Program-made: the position numbers and the translations under genes | Part shown: positions 25,241 to 35,524 of the stretch, in pieces | Layout: every line of letters starts with the position of its first letter | Numbering within the stretch: the stretch's first letter is position 1 | Notes under the pieces: generated by a model | Databases searched by the model: none | Told to the model about the DNA's origin: nothing | The model's input: only the letters and a program-made list of their open reading frames with translations | NCBI GenBank assembly: GCA_009787135.1 | Contig: WRGP01000253.1 | Location: 1-35,524 of the forward strand | Length of the DNA stretch: 35,524 bases | Reading direction: 5' to 3' | From: Bacillota bacterium | GTDB lineage: Bacteria > Bacillota > Clostridia > Christensenellales > Aristaeellaceae

Positions 25241-26731
25241 TTATAACACAACCCTTTGCAGCGCCCTGCGCACCGCGCCCTTGCCCCCCATCATCTCCCC
25301 AAAGTACGCCCGTACCTTGTCCGCAAGCCCTGCTTTCACTAAATCCGCGCCAAACAATGTCACGTCAGACAGCAGATCGTCCGTAAGCCCGCCCGCCACG
25401 CGCGTCCGTACCTCGTCCGCGCGCGGGTCAGGGCTTGGCGTAAACGCGTTTCCCCCGTCGTCCACGCCCGTCAAATAGCGCAGCCAGGCCGCGAACACAA
25501 ACGGCACACAACACAGCGTTTGCCTATTTTTTGTCGCGGCGAGCGTCCACCCAAACCGGATAGGCAGCTTCTGCGACGTGTCCGCCGCGATGCGCTGCGG
25601 CGTGTCCGGCAGGAAGTGATTGGGCAGGCGGCTCGTGAGCACCTCGTCAAGAAACGCCTTGGGGGATAGGACACCCGGGTCCTCCGCCACAGGCAGGCTC
25701 TCTTCATAGCCCAGCTTTTCCACAAAGCGGCGCACATCCTCATCCTTCATTTCCGTTGAAATTTTTGTAAAGCCAAGAAGGCAGCCCAGCACCGCCAGCG
25801 CCGTGTGCAGGGGGTTCAAACACGTGCCAACCTTCATCTTCTCCACTTTGTCCACAGTTTCCCTGTCTGTAAACAAAATGCCCGCCATTTCCAGTGCCGG
25901 CCGGCCGGCCGGGAACGCATCTTCCACCACCAGATACTCCGCCTGCTCGGCGTTGACAAACGCGGCGGTCACGGTTCCCTTTGCGGTGCGCACGATATCC
26001 ATATCCTCAACGCCCATGCCGCGAAGCGTCTCCGCGATCTTTGCGTCCGGATGCGGCGTGATCTTGTCAATCATCGTGCTGGGGAAAGCCACGCTTTCCT
26101 TCAAATAAAGCAAAAAATCTTCGGGAGCCTTACCGTCCCGCACCATTGCTTCCGCGACGGGCAGCAAGGCCTGCCAAAACTTCTCGCCATTGCGGCTGCA
26201 ATTGTCCATGCTCACCATGGCGAGCGGCGCGGCGCAAGCAAAAAATCGCTGACGCAGCAACCGGCAAAGCAGTCCCATCAGCGGGTTTTGCGGCGTATAC
26301 GCCTTTTCGGTCACGGTGAGGCTGACCATCTGCAGCGAGGCCTTCGCGAACACCTCTTCCATATACCGAACGCCCTGATCATCCGCCTTGACCGCGCGGG
26401 CTATGCTGGCCAGCACGCGCTTATCCACTTGCCCGTCCGGCCGAAGTACGGCCAGCAGGCTCAGGCCGTCATACGGCTCGTACACGCGGTCGATGATTTC
26501 TCCGTCGTACGCCTCGCACGCGATAATGCCGCGGTCATACGCGCCCGCGTCCAGCACGCGCTGCAGCGCCGCGCACAAAAAAGCCCGAAAGATATTGCCC
26601 GCGCCAAAATGTACCCAGGCGGGCGATTCCTCTGTGCGCCGCCTCATCAACGCTATGTCAAACCGCGGAAGCGCGATGCCCGCCGCCTCCCACCAGGCGC
26701 GATTCTTGATGTCCGCAGCAGTAAGCTTCAT
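25241..26731 (-). CDS. Mannitol dehydrogenase-family oxidoreductase (fructuronate reductase type)
   Basis: A 496-residue NAD(P)-dependent polyol or hexuronate dehydrogenase. ATG 26731 has AAGGAG six bases upstream; an earlier frame start at 26752 overlaps that site. The nucleotide-binding N-terminus has WVHFGAGNIFRAF. The catalytic C-terminal domain follows LAMVSMDNCSRNG and contains SVAFPSTMIDKITP, whose lysine is the family's catalytic base, then CLNPLHTALAVLGC. Members reduce fructuronate or tagaturonate (UxuB/UxaB) or oxidise mannitol. No other hexuronate gene is adjacent, so the substrate stays open. A TATAAT at 26759-26754, at the end of recF, could start a transcript for it, but the -35 is poor. 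Confidence 0.85.
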   Translation of the reverse strand: MKLTAADIKNRAWWEAAGIALPRFDIALMRRRTEESPAWVHFGAGNIFRAFLCAALQRVLDAGAYDRGIIACEAYDGEIIDRVYEPYDGLSLLAVLRPDGQVDKRVLASIARAVKADDQGVRYMEEVFAKASLQMVSLTVTEKAYTPQNPLMGLLCRLLRQRFFACAAPLAMVSMDNCSRNGEKFWQALLPVAEAMVRDGKAPEDFLLYLKESVAFPSTMIDKITPHPDAKIAETLRGMGVEDMDIVRTAKGTVTAAFVNAEQAEYLVVEDAFPAGRPALEMAGILFTDRETVDKVEKMKVGTCLNPLHTALAVLGCLLGFTKISTEMKDEDVRRFVEKLGYEESLPVAEDPGVLSPKAFLDEVLTSRLPNHFLPDTPQRIAADTSQKLPIRFGWTLAATKNRQTLCCVPFVFAAWLRYLTGVDDGGNAFTPSPDPRADEVRTRVAGGLTDDLLSDVTLFGADLVKAGLADKVRAYFGEMMGGKGAVRRALQRVVL

Positions 26732-26754
26732 TCGCACTCCTTCTATCTTCATTA

Positions 26755-27861
26755 TTATAGGTGAAACGCCTCTTCAGAGGATATCGTTCCTTCTTTTACC
26801 CGGTACGCGGCTTCATATACCGCGCCGCCCAGGTCGCTCATATGCGTGCAGGTGATCAGGGTCTGCACGTCCCGCATGCGCCGAAGAAGCATTTTGCGCC
26901 GGTTCACGTCCAATTCGCTCATCACGTCGTCGAGGAGCAGGACAGGGCTTTCCCCAATGACCTCCCGCATTACATCCAGCTCCGCCAGCTTCAGGGACAG
27001 AGCCGCGGTCCGCTGCTGCCCTTGGGAAGCGAAGGCGCGCGTGTCATGGCCGCAAAGCGTCATGCGCAAATCATCCCGGTGCGGGCCATGGCTCGTCGTG
27101 CCTCTTCTTACATCCTCTTTGCGCGCGGCGCGCAGCATGTGTAACAACTCCTCCGCGTTTTCCGCGCCGCTTTCATAGGCAAGCGTTAAAATCTCCCGCC
27201 CGCCCGACAGCATGGCATGCGTTTCCCTCGCCGCCTCTTTTAGCGTCTTCACATGGCGCGCGCGGCGTGTGATAACCTCCCCGCCCGCTTCCGCGAGCAA
27301 AGCATCCCACTCGTCAAGCGTTGAAGAAAGGGAACCGGAAGGGTTTGCCATCAAACTTTTCAGCAGCCCATTGCGTTGGTTTAGGGCGCGTATATACCGC
27401 TGCAGCGCATAGAAATAGCCAGGCGACAGCTGTGATATTGCCATATCTAAAAAACGCCTGCGCCCCTCCGGCCCCTCCTTCACCAGGCGAAGATCCTCTG
27501 GGGAAAAGAGCACCGCGTTTACATGACCCATCAATTCACCAAGGCGCGCCGCAGGCGAGCCATTGATCTTGATGACTTTTTTGCGTTTATCCTGCGGAAT
27601 GATCCGTACCGTCACGTCATGCACGCCGTCAAGACGCTCCGCCGTAATGGCCACCTGCGCGAACCTGTCCCCCCAGCGAACCAACTCCTGATCCCTCGCC
27701 GTCCGGCCCGACCGCCCAACACAGCACAGGTAAATCGCCTCAATCAGATTTGTCTTACCCTGCGCGTTCTCCCCATGCAGCACCGTTATGCCTGACGCGG
27801 GCGCAAACGCCGCCTGCGCATAGTTACGAAACCCCGCGAGGCGCATCTCCCGTATGATCAT
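26755..27861 (-). CDS. recF: DNA replication and repair protein RecF
   Basis: A 368-residue SMC-like ATPase that helps load RecA at gaps. Walker A is GENAQGKT (30-37), the signature is ASQGQQRTAALSLKLAEL, and Walker B is VLLLDDVMSELD. The N-terminal start MIIREMRLAGFRNY is typical. The ATG directly follows the dnaN stop codon with no spacing, so it is translationally coupled to dnaN. The small YaaA/S4-type gene often found between dnaN and recF in Firmicutes is absent. Confidence 0.96.
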   Translation of the reverse strand: MIIREMRLAGFRNYAQAAFAPASGITVLHGENAQGKTNLIEAIYLCCVGRSGRTARDQELVRWGDRFAQVAITAERLDGVHDVTVRIIPQDKRKKVIKINGSPAARLGELMGHVNAVLFSPEDLRLVKEGPEGRRRFLDMAISQLSPGYFYALQRYIRALNQRNGLLKSLMANPSGSLSSTLDEWDALLAEAGGEVITRRARHVKTLKEAARETHAMLSGGREILTLAYESGAENAEELLHMLRAARKEDVRRGTTSHGPHRDDLRMTLCGHDTRAFASQGQQRTAALSLKLAELDVMREVIGESPVLLLDDVMSELDVNRRKMLLRRMRDVQTLITCTHMSDLGGAVYEAAYRVKEGTISSEEAFHL

Positions 27862-28968
27862 TTAAGCGGAAAACACGCGCACAGGGAGCGCCAAATATAT
27901 AAACTTATCCCCAAAGGTTGGACATAGCACGCACGGGCTTACGTTGGAATTGAACTTCAGTATAATGTTTTCATCCTCAATCGCGCGCAGCGTATCCGTG
28001 ATGTAGCGCACATTAAAGGCAATATCCAGTTCCCTGCCCTCAAACTCAATGGAAATCTCCTCGCGCACGTCGCCAAGTTCCGCGTTGGACGTAATGAGCA
28101 GCGTGCCTTCCTCCATATGCAGTTTGACCAGGTTATTCTTGCCCTCGCGCGCCATAAGGGAAGCGCGGTCCAGCGCCTCTTCCATATCTTTTTTCGATAC
28201 GATAATGCGCGTCTTCCATTCGCCTGGTAAAATCTGTTTGTAACGAATAAATTCGCCGTCCAGCAGCCTTGCGATGACGCGCGTCGTGCCCATGTCCGCC
28301 ATTAAATGCGACTTTCCCCATACCAGCGATACCATCGCGTCCGTATCCGAAAGGATTCTGGCGATTTCGTTGAGCACCTTGCCCGGCACCACAACGCTCA
28401 GCGCCGGCAGTTCCTGCCCAAAGCTCTCCTTGCGCAACGCCATCCTAAAACCGTCCAACGCCACAATGGACATATCCCCTCCCTCCGCCTCCAGCAAACA
28501 ACCTGTAAGGATGGGGCGCGTTTCATCCGTGGCAATGGCAAAGGTCGAGCGCTGGATCATCTCGCGAAGGTTCGCTTGCGGCATGACAATGGTTTGAGAT
28601 TCTCCCACCTCAGGCAGCGCCGGAAATTCCTCGGCGGGAAGTCCCGCCAGTTTGGTTCTGGAACCCGCGCATTTAATCGAAGCCGCGTTTTGCTCGTTGA
28701 CGGAAACCTCCATCTGCCCTTCCGGAAGCTTGCGTACGATTTCCGCAAGCAGCTTGCCGGGCATCACCACGCTGCCTTCCTCGGTAACATGCGCCGCCAC
28801 ATGCGTTTCAATCCCAAGCGCCAGATCCGTGCAGGTAAGCCTGATGCCTTCTTCACATGAAACCAGCAGGACCCCTTCCATGATCTGTGTCGTTGACCGC
28901 GCGGCAATCGCCCTTGTCACGATGTTCAACGCGGAGACTAAATCGGCGACCAGACAAGTAAAGCGCAT
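27862..28968 (-). CDS. dnaN: DNA polymerase III β sliding clamp
   Basis: A 368-residue ring-forming clamp that tethers the replicative polymerase. Three similar domains of about 120 residues are recognisable: 1-120 (VSALNIVTRAIAARSTTQIMEGVLL), 128-245 (RSTFAIATDETRPILTGCLLE) and 250-368 (ALDRASLMAREGKNNLVKL, with the C-terminal YLALPVRV). AAGGAGG lies upstream of the ATG. It is the first gene of dnaN-recF and points away from the putative origin. dnaA, normally just upstream of dnaN, is not there. Confidence 0.97.
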   Translation of the reverse strand: MRFTCLVADLVSALNIVTRAIAARSTTQIMEGVLLVSCEEGIRLTCTDLALGIETHVAAHVTEEGSVVMPGKLLAEIVRKLPEGQMEVSVNEQNAASIKCAGSRTKLAGLPAEEFPALPEVGESQTIVMPQANLREMIQRSTFAIATDETRPILTGCLLEAEGGDMSIVALDGFRMALRKESFGQELPALSVVVPGKVLNEIARILSDTDAMVSLVWGKSHLMADMGTTRVIARLLDGEFIRYKQILPGEWKTRIIVSKKDMEEALDRASLMAREGKNNLVKLHMEEGTLLITSNAELGDVREEISIEFEGRELDIAFNVRYITDTLRAIEDENIILKFNSNVSPCVLCPTFGDKFIYLALPVRVFSA

Positions 28969-31808: not shown

Positions 31809-32375
31809 TTACGGAGTGTCACCGCGCAAAATGGCATGGAGCGCTACGTCCACATAAGCGCCCTTGTTGTACAGCCGGCCGCGAAGCACGCCTTCCTTGC
31901 GCATGCCCGCTTTTTCCATCACGCGGCCGGAGGCGGGGTTGCTCGTTTCATACTGCGCCTCAATGCGGTTGAGACGCATCTCCTCAAAGCCAAAGCGGAT
32001 CACCTCGCGCAGGGCTTCGGTCATCAGCCCCTGGTTCCAATACGCGCGCGAGAGCGAATACCCTATCTCGGCGGAGTTATTTTCCCTGTTCCACCACATG
32101 AACCCAATCGTGCCAATCAGACGGCCCGTGGCGGTCAGCTCAATGCCCCAGCTGGAAGGGTCGCTCTGGCGGTATTGCCTGAGAATGTAGCGAATGTATG
32201 CCCGGGAATCATGTATGGTCCGGTGCGTATCCCATAATACATGGCGGCTCACCTCAGGGTCACGGCTGTAGGCGAAGATATCCTGCGCGTCCGCCATGGT
32301 TATCCTGCGAAGCAGCAGGCGCTTTGTCGAAAGGGTCGGCAGGCGTGTAAAAAGTCCCTCGTAAAACAGGTTCAA
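31809..32375 (-). CDS. GNAT acetyltransferase (RimJ/RimL type)
   Basis: A 188-residue N-acetyltransferase. It starts with the typical PTLSTKRLLLRRITMADAQDIFAY, then GIELTATGRLIGTIGFMWW, the motif A region AEIGYSLSRAYWNQGLMTEALREVIRFGF, and ends with NPASGRVMEKAGMRKEGVLRGRLYNKGAYVDVALHAIL. I start it at TTG 32375, where homologues begin. The longer frame to 32441 overlaps the upstream small gene and has no family similarity. AAAGGA is about 13 bases from TTG, a little long. It may acetylate ribosomal protein or a small molecule; the substrate is unknown. Confidence 0.82.
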   Translation of the reverse strand: MNLFYEGLFTRLPTLSTKRLLLRRITMADAQDIFAYSRDPEVSRHVLWDTHRTIHDSRAYIRYILRQYRQSDPSSWGIELTATGRLIGTIGFMWWNRENNSAEIGYSLSRAYWNQGLMTEALREVIRFGFEEMRLNRIEAQYETSNPASGRVMEKAGMRKEGVLRGRLYNKGAYVDVALHAILRGDTP

Positions 32376-32406
32376 AGCGTTGCCACACGTCCTTTCTGAC
32401 GCTATC

Positions 32407-32556
32407 TCACGTCTGCGACTGCCGCCCGTCCGGCAGCACATATTCCGTCAGCCTTGGCTTGCTGTTATGTTCCGACACGCCCGCGACGAGCGCCCACACG
32501 CCCAAGCCGATAAGCAGTGTCAGGAGGAGGAGGAACGAGATATAGGCCTTTTTCAT
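32407..32556 (-). CDS. Small single-pass membrane protein
   Basis: A 49-residue peptide starting at ATG 32556, with GAGGGGAG upstream. The N-terminus MKKAYISFLLLLTLLIGLGVWALVAG is one hydrophobic segment, followed by a short polar tail ending in RQSQT. It could be an uncleaved anchor with the tail outside. It sits 64 bases after the GH2-like gene and 31 bases before GNAT on the same strand. No family is recognised. Confidence 0.55.
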   Translation of the reverse strand: MKKAYISFLLLLTLLIGLGVWALVAGVSEHNSKPRLTEYVLPDGRQSQT

Positions 32557-32620: not shown

Positions 32621-34657
32621 CTACTTCAAATTCAACCCTTCTATCGCGTTTTCCTGCAAGATTCTGCGCTTTTCGTCAGGAAGCAGCGCGCCCCAGCCCG
32701 GGTATTCGGGCGCGGCGCTTTCAAAGGCAAGGCCAAAGGCGATGGTATCGCCCGTGTTGCGCACCGCGCCGTCTTCAAAGCGTATGGCCGCTAAGGCAAG
32801 GCGGACGAGAGGTTCCAGCGGCGCTTGATCTGACACGCATATTGCGTAGTCGCAAACATCCAGCGTTTGCGCGAAGCGCTCGGCGGTCACCCGCAGCAGC
32901 AGCGCGCAGGGATGGGTGGGCACCGCGGCCCTGATCGTGCCCAGCATCGCGTTTTCCGGCACGCTGTCATACCGAACCTGCGTCATGACACGTCCGTCCG
33001 GCTCGTATAGGCACGCGCGTACGGTGATAGGGCCCGGCGCCGCTTCCTCGCACAGCAGGAACAGCTCCGCCTCAAACAGCGCGCCATAGGAAAAGCTCAT
33101 GCTGGTCAGGCGCGCGCATGCGTGCAGGGGCCGCAGCGCGCTTTCAAGTGCCCGACAGGCGGGCCGTGGCGCGTCTCCGTCCAGCAGCGCGCCGCTATAG
33201 AGCGATACCGGCCACGTAAGCGCCTTCCCCACAAAGATGCCCGCCGCCTTTGCCACGCGTGCCCGCTCCGCCGCCTGCCGAAGGGTTTCGGCCTGAAGAA
33301 ACCGCAGAAACCGCACGGCAAACCGCGGGTCTGCACACTCCGCGCCGGTCCATTCGCGCAGGGTGTTACGATCAGGCGCCCCCTCGGCGTTGTGCTTCCA
33401 TAGGGGCGTATCCGGAGGCCAGTAACGCAATACGCCGGAGATGCCTTCCGGATCCCGCGAAAGCGCCGCGCACGCTACGGCGCATAAATTTCCATCCGTC
33501 ACGGGCGCCCCGGCGAAAAGGCTTTCCGGCCCCCATACGGCGGGCGCGTGCCCGATAAGCGGATGCGCGCCGTCTTGCGCTTCCGCCAACGCCTGTAATA
33601 CCCCGGCGCTCGCTTCATTTTCCAGTCCGTAGCCAACCAGCGACGGCCGGTGGCGCACGTGCCGAAGAACCGAAAGCGCCTCCCCGGCATCTGCCGGCAG
33701 CATAGGCAACAGCCAAAACCCTTCGCGGTCCAGCGTTTCGTAAAACGCGTCCGTTTGAAGGCCATACACCCGGAGGCAGTTGACCCGCGCCGTGCGAAGC
33801 CGCGCGAGCGCGGGGATGAGGGCGTCCTCTGGCAGTGGCGGCGCCTGGGGGGCGGACCAATCCGCGCCGACGAGGAATGGCCGCCGGCCAGTCCGCTCGT
33901 CCGCAAATCCGGTACGCAGCACGCGGTTGTCGCAAACCGTGCCGGCGCGCGTCACCGTCAGCCGGAGCAGTACAGGCTTGTTCGGCACGCCAACGCTCCA
34001 CCGGCAGGGTACCGGTAAGATCATCTCGTGCCTGAGCGTGGTGCGCGCGGCATGAAGCTGCTCCGTCGCTTCCTGTATGCCGAGCGTCTCCTCGCCCCAT
34101 AGGGCGGCGTAGCGAAATGTATACCGCCCCGGCACGTACGGCAGCACCGTGGGTTTCAGCGCGATCGTGCCATACCCGTCGCAGCCGAGGGGTTGCGCGT
34201 GCAAGTCGCATATTTTCAGCTGGCTTACGCCGCGCAGACAAAGTTCCCCGTCAATCCCCGCGCGCGCCTGGGGTGGCTGACCACAGGGCGGCTCGGGGTC
34301 GAACGCCAGCGCGAGCTCGCAGGCATCCCGCCCAGCCGCCTGCGCGGTGATCTCCGTCTCCCAGTCTCCGGCCGCAAATCGCGCCGTCGGCAGCCCGTCC
34401 ACGCGCAGCCATCCGCGGCCGCGCACGCCCGAGGCGTGGAGAAAAACGCGCTCGGCCTTCAGATGAGCAAGGGAAACATGCCCCACAAGCGACCAGGACC
34501 GCAGGGAGATCCATTCGTTCGCGCGGCTGTTTACCCCTATGCCCGGGTTCACCGCCAGGCCGGAGGCTAAGAGGATGTCCAAAAGACGGCCGGGGAGCGC
34601 CGCGGGAAAAGTATACCCGGCGCCTTGCCATGTCAGGTCGGTCAGCGTAAAAGGCAT
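32621..34657 (-). CDS. GH2 β-mannosidase-like protein with altered active site
   Basis: A 678-residue cytoplasmic protein with the GH2 β-mannosidase layout. The jelly-roll N domain begins PAALPGRLLDILLASGLAVNP (about 18-38) and SWSLVGHVSL (55-63). The barrel starts at FLVGADWSAP (261), followed by LRTARVNCLRVYGLQTDAFYETLDREGFWLLP (287-318). The acid/base position lies in GLENEAS (N347-E348). The barrel end GIFVGKALTWPVSLYSGALLDGD matches the GTLYWQLND-x-WP region of mannosidases. But the SEFG/SEYG nucleophile motif is not seen; the equivalent zone reads LREWTGAECAD. It is also about 150 residues shorter than typical. It may be an inactive or altered-specificity relative. GGAGGT precedes the ATG. 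A terminator separates it from the gene upstream. Confidence 0.7.
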   Translation of the reverse strand: MPFTLTDLTWQGAGYTFPAALPGRLLDILLASGLAVNPGIGVNSRANEWISLRSWSLVGHVSLAHLKAERVFLHASGVRGRGWLRVDGLPTARFAAGDWETEITAQAAGRDACELALAFDPEPPCGQPPQARAGIDGELCLRGVSQLKICDLHAQPLGCDGYGTIALKPTVLPYVPGRYTFRYAALWGEETLGIQEATEQLHAARTTLRHEMILPVPCRWSVGVPNKPVLLRLTVTRAGTVCDNRVLRTGFADERTGRRPFLVGADWSAPQAPPLPEDALIPALARLRTARVNCLRVYGLQTDAFYETLDREGFWLLPMLPADAGEALSVLRHVRHRPSLVGYGLENEASAGVLQALAEAQDGAHPLIGHAPAVWGPESLFAGAPVTDGNLCAVACAALSRDPEGISGVLRYWPPDTPLWKHNAEGAPDRNTLREWTGAECADPRFAVRFLRFLQAETLRQAAERARVAKAAGIFVGKALTWPVSLYSGALLDGDAPRPACRALESALRPLHACARLTSMSFSYGALFEAELFLLCEEAAPGPITVRACLYEPDGRVMTQVRYDSVPENAMLGTIRAAVPTHPCALLLRVTAERFAQTLDVCDYAICVSDQAPLEPLVRLALAAIRFEDGAVRNTGDTIAFGLAFESAAPEYPGWGALLPDEKRRILQENAIEGLNLK

Positions 34658-34747: not shown

Positions 34748-35524
34748 TTACGCCTCATCCTTTGGGCCGGTGTTCTGCGCGCCGCTGTTCTCTGGCGGCC
34801 TGCGCCGCCTTCTTGGCGTGGGCGTCGTGGGGTCTTCGTGGTCCGGTTCAACGGGCGGAGGCGCCACGGGCATGATGGGGCGCTGTGCTGCCGCGGGTGC
34901 TTGCGGAGGCCGCGCATAGGGGTTTTGCGGCGCGGGGACAACAGGCTTTGCCGTCTCTCCCGCCGGCGCGGCGGGCGTTTCGGGCGGCTTTGCGGCTGTG
35001 CCGTTCACGGGCTTTCCATCCACCTGCGCGCGCGGCAGGGGAGAGGTAACGTCCTGTATCTGTACGCCCGGCTGCCGCGGGGCAGCCTGCCCCTGCGGAC
35101 GCATGTAGGGATTGGCGGCGGGCTTGGCCTGCGTTTCCTGTTTGGCTTGCGCGCCTGCTACCCCCGGCTTGGCCTGTGCCGCCGGCGCTCCCGGCTTTGC
35201 CGGCGCGCCGGGCGGTGTGGTCGGCGGAACGGGCCTGCGCACGGCGGGCTTCGCCCCGTTTTCACCTTGCTGTGCCTGCGCCCTGCGTTTTTCGTCTGCC
35301 AGGCGCTTTGCCTGCACCTGGGATTGCTTGCGCCGCGCCTTATTATAGACGGAGTACCCGTACAACCCGCCCGCGACAATCACCAGCAGCACCACCAGCG
35401 CCAACAGCAGGCCGGGCGGGGAGAAGCCGCTGTTTTCCGTGGGGAAGGCCGGGGCAGGCGGAAGAAGCGTCGCGTCCGGGTCCGATGTCGGCAGCAGGTC
35501 GCCGAACAACTCGCCAGGGGGGGG
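34748..35524 (-). CDS. Proline/alanine-rich membrane protein, 5' end outside window
   Basis: At least 258 codons are visible and the frame is still open at the window edge. A TTG at 35509 could start it, but no ribosome site is seen, and the upstream codons (Pro, Gly, Glu) continue smoothly, so it probably extends further. One membrane segment (LLLALVVLLVIVAGGLYGYSVY) lies near the visible start, followed by a basic stretch (KARRKQSQVQAKR). The rest is a low-complexity chain rich in Pro, Ala, Lys and Gln, with repeats such as NPYMRPQ and NPYARPP. It ends in TPRRRRRPPENSG. It looks like a membrane-bound linker or the tail of a larger envelope protein. No domain is recognised. Confidence 0.65.
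   Translation of the reverse strand, partial: PPPGELFGDLLPTSDPDATLLPPAPAFPTENSGFSPPGLLLALVVLLVIVAGGLYGYSVYNKARRKQSQVQAKRLADEKRRAQAQQGENGAKPAVRRPVPPTTPPGAPAKPGAPAAQAKPGVAGAQAKQETQAKPAANPYMRPQGQAAPRQPGVQIQDVTSPLPRAQVDGKPVNGTAAKPPETPAAPAGETAKPVVPAPQNPYARPPQAPAAAQRPIMPVAPPPVEPDHEDPTTPTPRRRRRPPENSGAQNTGPKDEA

Follow-up and report, generated by a model that had tools for sequence, protein, structure and literature searches.

The question raised by this locus is whether a protein resembling GH2 mannosidases, in which the usual nucleophile motif had been reported missing, is a member of a new GH2 subgroup or a pseudoenzyme, both of which the original prediction had left standing. The window, that is, the whole analyzed stretch of 35,524 nucleotides (contig WRGP01000253.1), carries the gene near its end, and relatives of its product, called pseudo-GH2 below, have been sought in 308 genomes of the window's family and 297 genomes of the order. 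Our reading of the sequence comparisons, to which we give a probability of roughly 0.72, is that the window protein is an old, vertically inherited, cytosolic pseudoenzyme derived from GH2, non-catalytic and serving as a binding protein or scaffold. The following features of the window are used in the argument.

32621..34657, minus strand: pseudo-GH2 gene, 678 aa, ATG start (open reading frame; homologues in 38 further genomes; beta-mannosidase profile match; hhalign).
34238..34657, minus strand: N-terminal jelly roll (GH2 galactose-binding-like), residues 1 to about 140 (PF22666 in 17 of 18 members; AF2 strands, partly at pLDDT 70-80).
33893..34237, minus strand: Ig-like beta-sandwich, residues about 141-255, at the PF00703-type position (alignment; strands in the model, some of them at pLDDT about 75).
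33119..33892, minus strand: what is left of the TIM barrel, residues about 256-513 (barrel region of 237 aligned residues, where active-type GH2s have 296-319).
33614..33619, minus strand: N347-E348, on the GH2 acid/base Asn-Glu column, not conserved in relatives (alignment).
33476..33481, minus strand: gap between A393 and V394 at which the nucleophile is missing (alignment to the sister GH2s).
33254..33322, minus strand: conserved helix 446-468, including FLQAETLRQAAERAR, common to active-type GH2s and structural (near-invariant columns; model helix, low pLDDT).
32624..33118, minus strand: beta domains of the C-terminal part (residues 514-678), carrying the family motif N..A.G...LLPGE (LLPDE in the window; alignments, profile match).
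31809..32441, minus strand: RimJ/RimL-like acetyltransferase of the GNAT type, encoded downstream within the locus (PF13302 at E 4e-37; PRK10809 at E 2.7e-12, below its cut-off).
34748..35524, minus strand: C-terminal part of an SH3-repeat protein with a single TM segment, cut by the contig end (remainder on contig C198 beside a Nudix gene).

The open reading frame is a real gene, and its position and strand agree with those given originally. When the window protein (MPFTLTDLTWQGAGYTFPAALPG...) was read by eye, no N-terminal hydrophobic signal stretch was visible, which fits the earlier view that any substrate would be intracellular. Long open reading frames are present antisense to pseudo-GH2 genes (33250-34570 in the window and 1456-3750 in L002), and these are probably spurious frames of GC-rich DNA.

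Homology to GH2 is weak when a single sequence is used and strong when the protein family is used as a profile. With the window protein alone, the Pfam search returned only PF22666 (Glyco_hydro_2_N2) at E 0.0065, below its cut-off, the PDB search 5n6u at E 1.8, and the NCBIfam search no match. The profile of 18 members, among which PF22666 is the most widely recognized domain, matched the solved beta-mannosidases 5n6u (E 7.8e-20), 2je8 (2.5e-14) and 6byi (1.2e-14), and hhalign of the family against active-type GH2s of related genomes gave E 3.8e-64 in global and 8.6e-34 in local mode over nearly the whole length; a GH2 is called active-type here if it has the catalytic residues, a definition by sequence alone. 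Profile homology extends over jelly roll, sandwich and barrel. The mannosidase-like assignment of the original prediction thus stands, and the doubt whether the GH2 match would hold has been settled in its favor by both profile and hhalign. Two AF2 models from three-sequence alignments reached pLDDT 47 and 44, too poor to place any glutamate, and the top Foldseek matches of the former, taken as weak support, were GH2 beta-mannosidases.

Relatives were read out and compared from 38 further genomes (39 proteins with the window), the window's family (f1) being represented by 14 genera and a second family of the order (f23) by four; weak profile matches elsewhere in the genomes, mostly fragments within long open reading frames, were excluded as members. 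A contig search with the single window protein found no relatives, and a three-sequence alignment used as query found two loci. In a class-wide sample of 391 genomes searched at E 1e-25, no truncated members were found outside the order, only three full-length proteins of active type. Trees were quick ones, without bootstrap and with many rows of unusual composition; in these, a branch of full SH-aLRT support (100) separated 38 members from 19 active-type GH2s, and the full-length GH2s L140-L142 were the sister group of the pseudo-GH2 clade (support 99). Members from genus g33 (L056, L058, L132-L136) have diverged so far that the two tested gave no Pfam match, yet their genes still directly adjoin the Nudix gene, without GNAT.

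The motif SE[FYCW]G occurs in none of the 39 proteins, so that the reported absence of SEFG/SEYG is true of the window protein and of all its relatives. The column of the nucleophile Glu is a gap with well-anchored flanks in all seven barrel-retaining members aligned, the window included. Where L140-L142 have HGPWEYMGEPAYYRFFNRDDSLFRSETGCPA, G001, from the same genus as the window, has WGPESYPGPESLCRDMNADDALIRT-VSCPA, the flanks aligning residue by residue with the nucleophile Glu gapped, and at the site itself the sister GH2s read RS[E]TGCPA (LFRSETGCPA), G001 RT[-]VSCPA (LIRT-VSCPA) and the window CA[-]VACAA. The wider alignment of 38 members and 19 active-type proteins has scattered letters or gaps of the family in this column. 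Four members have Glu there, one of them G110, whose Glu is not a conserved nucleophile because its congener G026 has Val in the same column. The stretch pointed to earlier as a possible substitute is located downstream of the lost position, and its first residue, given as E436, was off by one (436 is Trp and 435 is Glu).

Each of the acid/base Glu, the nucleophile Glu, the Arg of RVWGG and the Trp of WQLND is present in 19 of 19 active-type GH2s, against 2 of 38 pseudo-GH2 proteins for a Glu in the acid/base column, 3 of 38 for the Arg and 0 of 38 for the barrel Trp. As to the acid/base site that had been proposed, N347-E348 does align to the acid/base column, but it is not conserved: Asn-Glu is found there in the window protein only, and the letters in others are QI (G001), SV (G061), DL (G026), DV (G110), AE (G035) and a gap (G028). 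Since relatives are without the pair, it cannot count as a retained or conserved site, and we have rejected it as such; its presence in the window protein is counted against the pseudoenzyme reading. Neither a nucleophile Glu in the context SE-F/Y/C/T-G nor a conserved acid/base Glu after Asn was found, and the two losses extend throughout a clade spanning two families of the order.

The protein had also been called short, and this is correct. Between the same alignment columns, the barrel region has 296-319 residues in active-type GH2s, 237-277 in eight members, of which the window has the fewest (237), and 86-166, of about 300, in 30 of the 38. Judged by length and alignment, a complete (beta/alpha)8 barrel is not present, and about 150 residues would be too few to form one. 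Conservation across the family is confined to the N-terminal jelly roll and sandwich, a helix that includes FLQAETLR, and the LLPGE-bearing C-terminal domain, and the invariant or near-invariant columns in helix 446-468 are R452, Q455, A456, A463 and R467.

The genes are arranged in a fixed order, Nudix hydrolase, pseudo-GH2, in some genera a Gfo/Idh-type oxidoreductase, and RimJ/RimL-like acetyltransferase. The Nudix hydrolase (best NCBIfam match NudE at E 5e-23, below its cut-off) is the most constant neighbor: in 34 of 39 loci its gene immediately precedes pseudo-GH2 and is read in the same direction; of the loci without it, three reach a contig edge (L040, L049, L055). In G001 (L039) an SH3-repeat membrane protein is encoded between pseudo-GH2 and the Nudix gene, which is divergent from the SH3 gene. 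In the window genome, contig C198 carries the Nudix gene together with the rest of the SH3 gene, an order that agrees with G001, and the join of the two contigs is inferred. The SH3-repeat protein at 34748-35524 has a proline-rich tail, and its other part lies at the start of C198, divergent from the Nudix gene. The GNAT gene is downstream in 27 of 39 loci; it is missing beside pseudo-GH2 in g26 and g33 loci, and the contig of L126 ends before its position. As in G001, dnaN (27862-28968) and recF (26755-27861) are about 4 kb from pseudo-GH2, and the locus is therefore probably near the replication origin. A mannitol dehydrogenase-family gene (25241-26752) directly adjoins recF.

For comparison, 20 further genomes were chosen by GNAT, mostly from genera without detected pseudo-GH2. 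Nudix and GNAT genes were direct neighbors in 13 of these and had only the oxidoreductase between them in two; pseudo-GH2 was present in one (G060), and no Nudix gene was nearby in four. In most genera of the window's family pseudo-GH2 was not detected, the Nudix and GNAT genes of the sampled genera being usually adjacent, and pseudo-GH2 is therefore dispensable, which we count against the pseudoenzyme reading. On the Nudix+GNAT tree rooted with f23, presence and absence require at least seven changes, and pseudo-GH2 is best read as an old gene that has been repeatedly lost. Because the f23 rows were selected for carrying the gene, its presence at the root is suggested rather than proven.

If the pseudoenzyme reading is correct, pseudo-GH2 would be unable to hydrolyze glycosides and would instead bind non-covalently by the surfaces of its beta sandwiches. 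Most likely it would partner or regulate some protein expressed with it, or else it would bind a small glycoside or a nucleotide sugar. In view of the constant Nudix neighbor and the surviving beta sandwiches, a function in binding or as a scaffold is the most economical one to suppose. Gene neighborhood alone is no demonstration of an interaction between Nudix hydrolase and pseudo-GH2, and we propose only tentatively that an order-level family of GH2 pseudoenzymes may have been whittled to a beta-sandwich scaffold that is dedicated to partnering or regulating the Nudix hydrolase encoded beside it, and the RimJ/RimL-like acetyltransferase.

Overlapping with the pseudoenzyme reading, and differing in naming a sugar as the ligand, is the rather unlikely idea that jelly roll and sandwich serve carbohydrate binding only, sensing or sequestering a cytosolic oligosaccharide. 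The galactose-binding-like domain of GH2 in 17 of 18 members would suit it, as would the sugar-type Gfo/Idh oxidoreductase in the locus of some genera and the GH38-like alpha-mannosidase gene (named by eye) adjoining the sister GH2. However, this domain usually shapes the pocket in GH2 enzymes instead of serving as a lectin, most members have lost the barrel pocket, and Gfo/Idh genes are also found in loci without pseudo-GH2 (L062, L075).

It is highly improbable that the proteins form an active GH2 subgroup with a shifted nucleophile or a different mechanism, in which another acidic residue of the barrel takes over. Points in its favor are N347-E348 in the window protein, GH2_19 members in which NE is replaced by TV, NA or NQ, their activity not being established (PMC12243196), and E378, which is invariant in the eight barrel-retaining members. 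This last residue aligns with no catalytic residue of active-type GH2s, and we have rejected it as a new nucleophile on the ground that its stretch is absent in most members. Against activity, most of the barrel is gone in 30 of 38 members, the NE pair is not common even to the congeneric protein, and the barrel Trp, together with the substrate-pocket Arg in most members, has been lost. With the nucleophile and the conserved acid/base lost and the barrel incomplete, a new subgroup, if that is taken to mean active enzymes, is unsupported.

Pairwise dN/dS was calculated with our own Nei-Gojobori script and was 0.16 for G109/G110 and 0.21 for G176/G178, while comparisons with G026 gave 0.33-0.36; in pairs farther apart it was 0.42-0.75, with dS near saturation. 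Between the window and G001, pseudo-GH2 has 47% identity, against 78% for the neighboring GNAT, 71% for DnaN and 63% for RecF, and such fast divergence, which could mean weak constraint, is counted against the pseudoenzyme reading. The least probable account, in which the gene of a former GH2 enzyme is decaying as a pseudogene and its frame is not yet broken, would suit this very fast divergence, the progressive barrel loss and the many losses across genera, but it is opposed by frames that stay open in all 39 genomes (18 genera), by the fixed gene order, by the occurrence in both f1 and f23, and by dN/dS well below 1 in close pairs (0.16-0.36 in the closest), and a pure pseudogene has been rejected by dN/dS and open frames.

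The pseudoenzyme named as one option in the original prediction is accordingly the one we retain: an enzyme homologue that has lost both conserved catalytic positions clade-wide, and the barrel core in most members, while the gene remains under purifying selection, with the N-terminal jelly roll, Ig-like sandwich, one barrel helix and C-terminal beta domains kept at dN/dS below 1. The family presents, with intermediates, a loss of catalytic residues and then of the barrel core, the accessory domains staying selected at one chromosomal place. Annotators would label such genes GH2 or hypothetical, and mannosidase counts that included them would credit these gut bacteria with too large a capacity for glycan degradation.

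Among known systems, the GH2 beta-mannosidases (5n6u of Dictyoglomus, 2je8/2vot of BtMan2A and 6byi, an exo-beta-mannanase of Xanthomonas) share with pseudo-GH2 an alignable jelly roll, Ig-like sandwich, start and end of the barrel, and C-terminal beta domain; pseudo-GH2 differs in having no nucleophile, no barrel Trp and no conserved acid/base, in its shortened or mostly deleted barrel and in the absence of a visible signal peptide. The sister GH2s L140-L142 (821 aa, from the class-mate genomes G617, G644 and G671) have in common with it the stretch DD.L.R..xCPA...WPP...LW.HR. Unlike pseudo-GH2, they keep GGNE, SETG and a full-length barrel, and their genes are adjacent to a GH38-like alpha-mannosidase gene, which suggests a mannoside-degrading ancestor. 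Outside GH2, the chitinase-like protein CHI3L1 has a glycosidase fold without catalysis. Heparanase 2 is a glycosidase-like pseudoenzyme that has kept its fold without catalysis (PMC12406646). These two are secreted animal proteins of other GH families, and their likeness to pseudo-GH2 is without close homology. Our literature search found no paper on GH2 pseudoenzymes and none on the Nudix-GH2 locus; altered GH2 acid/base motifs and pseudoenzymes of other glycosidase families are already known. The former have been reported for GH2_19 members (PDB 7XYR; PMC12243196), which resemble pseudo-GH2 as GH2 proteins with a replaced acid/base motif; in that case a change of the NE motif has been reported, whereas in pseudo-GH2 neither of the two conserved catalytic residues remains and the barrel is mostly gone.
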